Assembly: GCA_001871435.1 (NCBI GenBank) | Contig: MNVC01000014.1 | Coordinates: 1 to 59,118 of the forward strand | Direction: 5' to 3' | Source: Candidatus Magasanikbacteria bacterium CG1_02_32_51 | GTDB lineage: Bacteria; Patescibacteriota; Patescibacteriia; Magasanikbacterales; UBA922 | DNA: 59,118 bases | Shown here: positions 45,530 through 46,690 of the stretch, piece by piece | Numbering within the stretch: position 1 is the first letter of the stretch | Layout: each line of letters opens with the position of its first letter | Notes under the pieces: generated by a model | Told to the model about the DNA's origin: nothing | The model's database searches: none | What the model saw: the letters and a program-made list of their open reading frames with translations, nothing else | Made by a program: the position numbers and the translations under genes

Positions 45530-45772
45530 ATGATTACTATCGTCAAAGCTACATCCAAAGGACAAATCACTATACCTGCTTCTTGGAGGAAGCGTTTTGT
45601 TACCAATAGATATTTGGTAGAAATAAAAAATTCTCATTTAGAGATCAAACCATTTGATCTAGACAAACTAACAGAAAAACAAGAATATACAGTCTTTGAT
45701 GCTATTCGTGATAATGATGGCAAGGGAATCAAAGCTAGTGATTTACAAAAGATTTTGAAGAAAACTTATTAA
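45530..45772 (+). CDS. AbrB/MazE/SpoVT-family antitoxin-like protein
   Basis: MITIVKATSKGQITIPASWRKRFVTNRYLVEIKNSHLEIKPF. Confidence 0.88.
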   Translation: MITIVKATSKGQITIPASWRKRFVTNRYLVEIKNSHLEIKPFDLDKLTEKQEYTVFDAIRDNDGKGIKASDLQKILKKTY

Positions 45773-45782
45773 TAATTTTTCT

Positions 45783-46037
45783 ATGGATAAAATAGAAAAA
45801 TTATTGCGAAAGATAAATCAGAAAAGTAGAGAACAATTGCTTACTATTATTACTAGATTATTAGCAGGAGAAAGACATGGTCTTAATATAAAAAGATTAA
45901 TAGGTACAGATTTTTGTCGTCTACGTTCGGGACGATTTAGAATTATTTTTCATTATGAAGGAAAAAATAGAGAAATAATAATAGATAGTATTAAATTACG
46001 AGATGAAAATACTTATAATGAAAATACTTATAAATAA
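45783..46037 (+). CDS. RelE/ParE-superfamily toxin-like protein
   Basis: LLAGERHGLNIKRLIGTDFCRLRSGRFRIIFHYEGKNREIIIDSIKLRDENTY. Confidence 0.88.
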   Translation: MDKIEKLLRKINQKSREQLLTIITRLLAGERHGLNIKRLIGTDFCRLRSGRFRIIFHYEGKNREIIIDSIKLRDENTYNENTYK

Positions 46038-46080: not shown

Positions 46081-46142
46081 GCGGATCGGACGAGGCTCGA
46101 ACTCGCAACTTTCCCGACTGAGTCGGGATGCTCTAACCAGTT
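46081..46142 (-). pseudogene. tRNA-like fragment (5' part missing, anticodon arm replaced by CCCGACTCAGTCGGG)
   Basis: Shares T-arm, acceptor 3' half and CTGGTTAGAGC with the tRNA-Asp at 46185-46261. Confidence 0.75.
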
Positions 46143-46184
46143 TTTGTCCAATTTTTGGTCTGAAAATAAAAAAGATAGATTACT

Positions 46185-46261
46185 TGGCGGACCGGACGAG
46201 GCTCGAACTCGCAACTTCTGCCGTGACAGGGCAGTGCTCTAACCAGTTGAACTACCGGTCC
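46185..46261 (-). tRNA. tRNA-Asp (GTC), CCA encoded
   Basis: GGACCGG TA GTTC..GAGC A CTGCC CTGTCAC GGCAG AAGTT GCGAG TTCGAGC CTCGT CCGGTCC G CCA. Confidence 0.93.
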
Positions 46262-46279
46262 GCTAAATTATCTATCAAA

Positions 46280-46525
46280 TTACCATTTTGTTCTATATAC
46301 CAAAGAACGTACTTTTTTTTTTGCTTTTTTAAGTTTTGTTTCCAAATTACAGGCTTCTTTGTTTGAATGGCATTCTATATATCCTATAAGTAACCAAGGT
46401 TCACCTTTCTTAGTATATTGCTCTTGTCCGAGGTTATGTTCGTTCAACCTTCTTTTTAAATCATTTGTTTTACCTATATAGTATTTGTTAATTTTTTTAC
46501 TATATAAGTAATATACCCTCCACAT
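46280..46525 (-). CDS. Single-domain GIY-YIG nuclease-like protein
   Basis: MWRVYYLYSKKINKYYIGKTNDLKRRLNEHNLGQEQYTKKGEPWLLIGYIECHSNKEACNLETKLKKAKKKVR. Confidence 0.92.
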   Translation of the reverse strand: MWRVYYLYSKKINKYYIGKTNDLKRRLNEHNLGQEQYTKKGEPWLLIGYIECHSNKEACNLETKLKKAKKKVRSLVYRTKW

Positions 46526-46539
46526 ATTATTTTATATTA

Positions 46540-46602
46540 GGATTCGAACTCGCAACTTTCCCGACTGAGTCGGGATGCTCTAACCAGTTGAACTACCGGT
46601 CC
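46540..46602 (-). pseudogene. tRNA-like fragment (3' acceptor half missing, same altered anticodon arm)
   Basis: GGACCGGTAGTTCAACTGGTTAGAGCATCCCGACTCAGTCGGGAAAGTTGCGAGTTCGAATCC then unrelated sequence. Confidence 0.75.
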
Positions 46603-46640
46603 GTAAATTTATAATATTTTTAGCTTTGAACTTTTTTGAA

Positions 46641-46690
46641 CCAGTTGTCCGCCAAAGGCGGATCCGCCTTTGGCGGAAACTACCGGTCCG
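46641..46690 (-). pseudogene. tRNA 5' fragment split by a 30-nt palindrome
   Basis: GGACCGGTAGTT|TCCGCCAAAGGCGGATCCGCCTTTGGCGGA|CAACTGGTT. Confidence 0.75.
46648..46677. repeat. Perfect 30-nt palindrome
   Basis: TCCGCCAAAGGCGGATCCGCCTTTGGCGGA. Confidence 0.95.

Follow-up and report, generated by a model that had tools for sequence, protein, structure and literature searches.

The stretch of DNA analysed here (the window) is 59,118 nt long and comes from Candidatus Magasanikbacteria bacterium CG1_02_32_51 (contig MNVC01000014.1). One locus in it combines an intact tRNA-Asp gene, a small ORF for a GIY-YIG nuclease and broken copies of the same tRNA, with the following features:

46639..46689, minus strand: broken tRNA-Asp copy A, the 5' part (acceptor strand and D-arm), with its D-loop split at GTT^CAA by a double hairpin
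46648..46677, no strand assigned: the double hairpin TCCGCCAAAGGCGGATCCGCCTTTGGCGGA, a perfect palindrome of 30 nt in the D-loop of copy A
46540..46602, minus strand: broken tRNA-Asp copy B, which starts at the tRNA 5' end and runs to the T-loop, with a hairpin in place of the anticodon arm
46559..46575, no strand assigned: 17-nt palindrome TCCCGACTCAGTCGGGA, which substitutes for the anticodon arm of copy B
46280..46525, minus strand: GIY-YIG ORF of 81 aa, single domain (PF01541), ATG at 46525 and stop at 46280
46185..46261, minus strand: intact tRNA-Asp(gtc), the sole copy detected in the genome
46081..46142, minus strand: broken tRNA-Asp copy D, from the D-loop to the 3' end, with a hairpin anticodon arm as in copy B
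46112..46128, no strand assigned: the 17-nt palindrome TCCCGACTCAGTCGGGA in copy D

Every part of the locus described in the initial annotation was recovered at its position. The order on the minus strand, read 5' to 3', is copy A, copy B, GIY-YIG ORF, intact tRNA-Asp and copy D, with 14 nt between copy B and the ATG and 18 nt between the stop codon and the intact tRNA. The inner broken copies B and D have 46 identical nt in common, including the palindromic anticodon arm (TCCCGACT-C-AGTCGGGA, palindrome family D1). The altered anticodon arm previously noticed in both truncated copies is a palindrome and not a mutated anticodon. A UGA-decoding tRNA was rejected: what looks like a TCA anticodon in the broken copies goes with a C at position 33 and is part of the palindrome. 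The 30-mer of copy A recurs in the same genome (G000) at C30:6261 and C35:13829, and its family is dispersed there. The assembly (837 kb, 91% complete) has no second detected tRNA-Asp. A chance origin of the layout can be excluded, because the repeats are long and G017, a genome of another genus, shows the complete arrangement with other hairpins and a protein 62% identical.

The ORF product matches PF01541 with E=4.7e-16. Y, YxG, R26 and E62 are invariant in 22 relatives, and the AlphaFold model (pLDDT 87) is a bare GIY-YIG domain; the core, the conserved Arg and Glu and the alpha/beta fold of the GIY-YIG superfamily are all present. The solved structures nearest to the model are UPF0213 BH0048 and then Slx1, and the UvrC and I-TevI catalytic domains were also retrieved. 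A profile search with the protein likewise found UPF0213 and SLX1 (closest relatives 1zg2, 1ywl and SLX1 chains). UPF0213/YhbQ-like single-domain proteins and Slx1 are thus its nearest neighbours in sequence and fold; in the tree it groups outside the UPF0213/YhbQ clade, in the other clade. Slx1, for its part, acts together with Slx4 in the DNA repair of eukaryotes. No recognised DNA-binding module was found in the single 81-aa domain. SegB of phage T4 is a larger protein with a DNA-binding part. The dN/dS values of the family proteins range from 0.03 to 0.33, and these proteins are therefore maintained under purifying selection. By analogy, recognition of hairpin or branched DNA by the nuclease is plausible, because Slx1, a near fold relative, is structure-selective (PMC8287910).

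The genome under study contains eight PF01541 matches: one UvrC-like, two YhbQ-like located off tRNAs and five of the other subtype. All of these five are at tRNAs (Asp, Thr, Phe, Pro and Cys), and each has a hairpin-bearing broken copy of its own tRNA. Two of them look as if they are decaying. The Thr-associated ORF (L003 1501-1760) has an in-frame TGA where its relative L105 has Trp, and the Phe ORF is shortened and runs into tRNA-Pro.

The association was then quantified in 38 further genomes of the order together with G000, using all GIY-YIG hits except the UvrC of G000 itself. A same-strand tRNA neighbour was found for 47/53 members of the window clade, some of them with a tRNA fragment at a contig end in place of a complete tRNA, versus 0/46 members of the other small GIY-YIG clades (Fisher p=5e-22). 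These 46 are YhbQ-like or GTLYIGVTN-type, and one further low-support outlier at tRNA-Gly lies outside this count. In contrast to the window clade, the UPF0213-like clade of the same genomes, counted here together with its sister clade, is never at tRNAs. Homologues of the ORF, which a tRNA-targeting cassette would place beside tRNA genes, are indeed found there, and arrays of tRNA fragment, GIY-YIG ORF and tRNA turned out to be numerous and to occur in many CPR lineages. About 19 tRNA isotypes adjoin window-clade ORFs. Two mirror layouts occur, a 5' part followed by the ORF and the intact tRNA, or the intact tRNA followed by the ORF and a 3' part; the latter was seen for Pro, Ile, Glu, Lys, Tyr and Gly. 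At several loci, 0-5 nt separate the tRNA 3' end from the start of the ORF, and in G013 a unit of the ORF and the 3' half of tRNA-Ile is repeated in tandem. An extended acceptor stem at intact tRNAs was discarded as a general trait: it was seen for Asp in two genera, but the mean flank score was no different from the control (3.96 versus 3.85).

Comparison of the Asp locus with sister species showed an uninterrupted site in two species of the same genus. G002 and G004 (L159, L160) have a single tRNA-Asp with neither ORF nor fragments, and its sequence is identical to the intact tRNA-Asp of the window; tRNAs are too conserved for this identity to discriminate a foreign from a native origin. Occupancy also differs in both directions: G000 has elements at Pro, Phe, Cys and Thr(tgt) where the sites of G004 are empty, and Tyr and Gly(gcc) carry them in G004 but not in G000. 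A fixed site that is occupied in some species and empty in their close relatives is a trait of free-standing homing endonuclease genes, and the transfer and target specificity described next are two more. The Pro element has a dS of 0.46 (80% identity) between G000 and G009, two genomes whose UvrC genes have reached saturation (pS 0.74, 66% identity). For this one element and one control gene, the comparison therefore indicates that the Pro element moved after the genera split.

The protein also carries a signal of target choice. On a weakly resolved tree of 132 family members (83 columns), tRNA isotype needs 53 changes, versus a mean of 72 and a minimum of 66 after shuffling (0/300 as low). 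Near-copies add to this clustering, yet the Trp and Gln groups are deep: the Trp group has members in Uhr-, Falkow-, Moran- and Magasanikbacteria, the Gln group in Davies-, Collier-, Falkow- and Magasanikbacteria. Isotype switching within clades is frequent, and target specificity is therefore partial. Other structural RNAs are used as well. Relatives lie within 16S rRNA (L199) and 23S rRNA (L196, L236, L246), beside tmRNA (L215, L115, L329) and beside RNase P RNA (L335, L262); the remaining non-tRNA family members are in ordinary intergenic DNA. The ORF is nearly always on the same strand as the RNA gene. A group I or group II intron was rejected, with no Rfam intron match in 60 loci scanned among the relatives and a contiguous intact tRNA. 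A phage origin gained no support, as the viral_contigs scan gave one relative (L265) and PHROGs matches were weak only.

Judged from sequence, we consider it probable that the locus holds a mobile element with a GIY-YIG nuclease, which enters structural-RNA genes but keeps one copy of the target intact. There is good support for its mobility and for its choice of targets; the cleavage chemistry and the origin of the hairpins are what we infer. The 81-aa nuclease would cut an RNA gene still free of the element, at a loop or at the junction of a stem, and the element would be copied in while the break is repaired. The tRNA sequence would be duplicated in the process, so that one copy remains functional. 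In the window, the outcome would be a hairpin-broken tRNA-Asp, the ORF, the intact tRNA-Asp and a hairpin-broken 3' piece. The host would need the intact copy, and the broken copies, presumably unable to act as tRNAs, may be the former target or homology arms. Later decay of the ORF would leave scars. A counterpoint to the cutting model is that the donor's own intact tRNA-Asp and the tRNA at the empty sites do not differ in sequence. Free-standing GIY-YIG enzymes reportedly cut the donor allele with low efficiency (PMC13096335).

The ends of the elements bring a second explanation into play, in which the GIY-YIG protein would be a transposase-like nuclease acting on hairpin or inverted-repeat ends, as RAYT/TnpA does with REP hairpins. 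Both the palindromes scattered in the genome and the hairpins of broken copies would then be ORF-less passengers placed at the loops of structured-RNA genes. This could well be the case, although we stop short of calling it probable. At family loci away from tRNAs, inverted repeats (score 11 or more) flank the ORF in 33/43, versus 2% of random pairs, and delimit elements that measure 276-318 bp. Short versions without an ORF (63, 69 and 102 nt) share these ends, and one of them is bordered by a short direct repeat. Where the tRNA lies downstream, a copy of its 5' prefix precedes the ORF in 32/60 loci (control 2.6%), while the other 28/60 have no 5' duplicate of 7 nt or more. The prefix copies stop at tRNA nt 7, 10-12, 18-21, 23-27 or 35-36, which on the cloverleaf are mostly stem ends and loops, and 31/32 continue into a hairpin or inverted repeat starting with CC or TC. 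The form at tRNA 5' ends is tRNA nt 1-7 or 1-10/11, CCCC..., the ORF and ...GGGG running into the intact tRNA. An alien hairpin, typically GC-rich, was present in 25/37 broken tRNA copies, versus 7% expected. The insertion point is kept across genera with different hairpins, as in the Asp D-loop (GTT^CAA; other hairpins in G017, G015 and G022) and the Glu anticodon loop (TTTT^CA). The inverted-repeat ends, the ORF-less elements, the hairpins that follow the prefix copies or lie in broken copies and the recurrent insertion points are consistent with hairpin-guided movement, as is the position of the structure-selective Slx1 as the closest solved fold after UPF0213. The inverted-repeat ends and the prefix copies equally favour the element that spares an intact target, whereas the 28/60 loci lacking a prefix copy count against it.

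Several observations fit this second explanation less well. Target duplications are 7 or 10-11 bp at tRNA 5' ends but of variable length, and often missing, away from tRNAs. The ORF has no inverted-repeat ends in the window or at most tRNA loci, and the hairpins often lie inside the broken copy, away from the ORF junction. The relation between palindrome number and tRNA-type ORFs is suggestive in G000, G003, G018 and G023 but not in G010, G014 and G015, which have few palindromes of the scanned family yet several tRNA-type ORFs. The two processes may also overlap: homing by break repair, with the broken copies as homology arms, could operate together with transposition guided by hairpin ends.

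Broken tRNA copies also occur without an ORF, namely Ile(tat), His and Arg in G000, Ile(tat), Lys and Asn in G004, five isotypes in G016, and Asp in G009 and G022. Some duplication may therefore predate the ORF or be independent of it. This would suit a third scenario, in which slippage or template switching at hairpin-forming tRNA genes first yields tandem tRNA copies, palindromes then invade the spare copies, and GIY-YIG ORFs settle later where insertion is harmless. We regard it as unlikely. It leaves unexplained the isotype signal in the protein tree, the rRNA, tmRNA and RNase P RNA targets and the duplicates that abut inverted-repeat elements at nt 7 or 10-11, and G007, which has neither palindromes nor tRNA-type ORFs, has 0/20 partial tRNA copies. 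An RNA-level function, with the nuclease acting on tRNA and the broken copies serving as decoys or antitoxin-like RNAs, is very improbable. In its favour, hairpin copies partly retain a cloverleaf-like layout, two Cys copies of G003 score 27-32 bits with the tRNA model, and the short distance from tRNA to ORF start may link transcripts. Against it, broken copies persist where there is no ORF, relatives are found in rRNA and in plain intergenic stretches free of tRNAs, and to our knowledge GIY-YIG is a DNA-nuclease fold in every characterised relative.

The mobile element that spares a functional RNA gene thus remains our preferred reading. The initial annotation had proposed a tRNA-targeting mobile GIY-YIG cassette of this kind, and this part is borne out by the recurrent layout (about 19 isotypes, many CPR lineages), the empty sites in the same genus and one exchange between genera. 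Its account of the Asp locus as a single insertion with a long target duplication has to be qualified in view of the ORF-less broken copies. The palindromes as a systematic component, the inverted-repeat ends of many relatives and the tmRNA, RNase P RNA and rRNA targets had no place in that account.

A documented precedent for an endonuclease with a rescuing duplicate is provided by the mORFs of fungal mitochondria (Allomyces atp6; Glomus atp6, atp9, cox2 and nad3) (PMC3630166). Like the CPR loci, mORFs combine an endonuclease ORF in an essential gene with a partial gene duplicate, keeping a functional version and displacing the other part beyond the ORF (PMC3630166). The partial duplicate of the target beside the ORF and the single functional copy reported here correspond to this arrangement. 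In contrast, mORFs reside in mitochondrial protein genes, the Glomus atp6 example is LAGLIDADG, and no hairpins or inverted-repeat ends are described there (PMC3630166), whereas the CPR element uses bacterial tRNA, tmRNA, RNase P RNA and rRNA genes. SegB of phage T4 is a free-standing GIY-YIG homing endonuclease that cuts within tRNA genes; like the window ORF, it is an intronless GIY-YIG gene amid tRNA genes, and it drives the inheritance of the tRNA region (PMC2988022, PMC13096335). It differs in being a phage gene, for which neither broken tRNA duplicates nor hairpins are described (PMC2988022, PMC13096335).

GIY-YIG insertions in CPR rRNA are already known (PMC11270868). Tsurumaki et al. 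2024 reported GIY-YIG ORFs in CPR rRNA insertions, without intron match, at the tops or bases of stem-loops; they judged GIY-YIG outside spread by homing and did not mention tRNA (PMC11270868). L199, L196, L236 and L246 are insertions of this type in the same host group, but most members of the clade studied here are at tRNAs, and its ends are inverted repeats or hairpins. A similarity to RAYT/REP and REPIN systems (PMC3116915) is that dispersed palindromes may depend on one small enzyme. The fold of RAYTs, which are Y1 tyrosine transposases, differs from that of the window protein, and a link between dispersed palindromes and GIY-YIG would be our inference. Set against a classical insertion sequence, which has terminal inverted repeats and a target duplication of fixed length, the picture is mixed: inverted repeats are frequent at non-tRNA loci but absent around the window ORF, and duplications are 7 or 10-11 bp at tRNA 5' ends and variable or missing elsewhere. 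Within the open-licence literature searched, neither the tRNA form nor the inverted-repeat ends nor the rescue duplicates were found described. It looks like a widespread mobile element of CPR bacteria without earlier description, and a class of its own may well be warranted. Tentatively, this may be a new class of minimal bacterial transposable element, defined by a structure-selective GIY-YIG nuclease of 80-90 aa, hairpin or inverted-repeat ends, ORF-less hairpin derivatives, insertion at loops or stem junctions of RNA genes and a target-rescuing duplication, in other words a natural cleave-and-rescue element.

tRNA genes are too short and too essential to be interrupted, and a resident that duplicates its target solves this difficulty just as cleave-and-rescue drives do by design. 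If true, the model would account for the many small GIY-YIG genes of CPR bacteria and for many of their hairpin-riddled tRNA pseudogenes, and perhaps for part of the dispersed CPR palindromes. It would also offer a testable minimal mobile element with an 81-aa protein as carrier.

Some further arrangements were observed. In Ca. Falkowbacteria (L254), a tRNA-Ile lies between two GIY-YIG ORFs, of which the one on the 5' side belongs to an inverted-repeat element; a 69-nt ORF-less element with the same ends as this element lies upstream. In L130 (Ile-tat of G000) and L133 (Ile-tat of G004), an intact tRNA-Ile(tat) stands between broken copies with matching hairpins and no ORF, which is probably a scar or else a sign of ORF-independent duplication. 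In a second GIY-YIG clade (YYVYIMAS..GTLYIGVTN; L103, L081, L051 and others), several members are flanked by inverted REP-like palindromes (TGTCATTCCCGC...GCGGGAATCCAG), possibly a separate association of GIY-YIG and palindromes; flanking inverted repeats scoring 11 or more were found at 10/45 control-clade loci. The 30-mer copy at G000:C30:6261-6290 (L004, about 2709-2738) apparently lies within a protein-coding region, where 30 nt would preserve the frame. Rickettsia palindromic elements likewise keep the frame within coding regions. Near the Asp locus, two small ORFs on the plus strand of the window (45530-46037) have weak MazE-antitoxin-like and ParE-toxin-like Pfam scores, below the curated cut-offs, and may possibly form a toxin-antitoxin pair.
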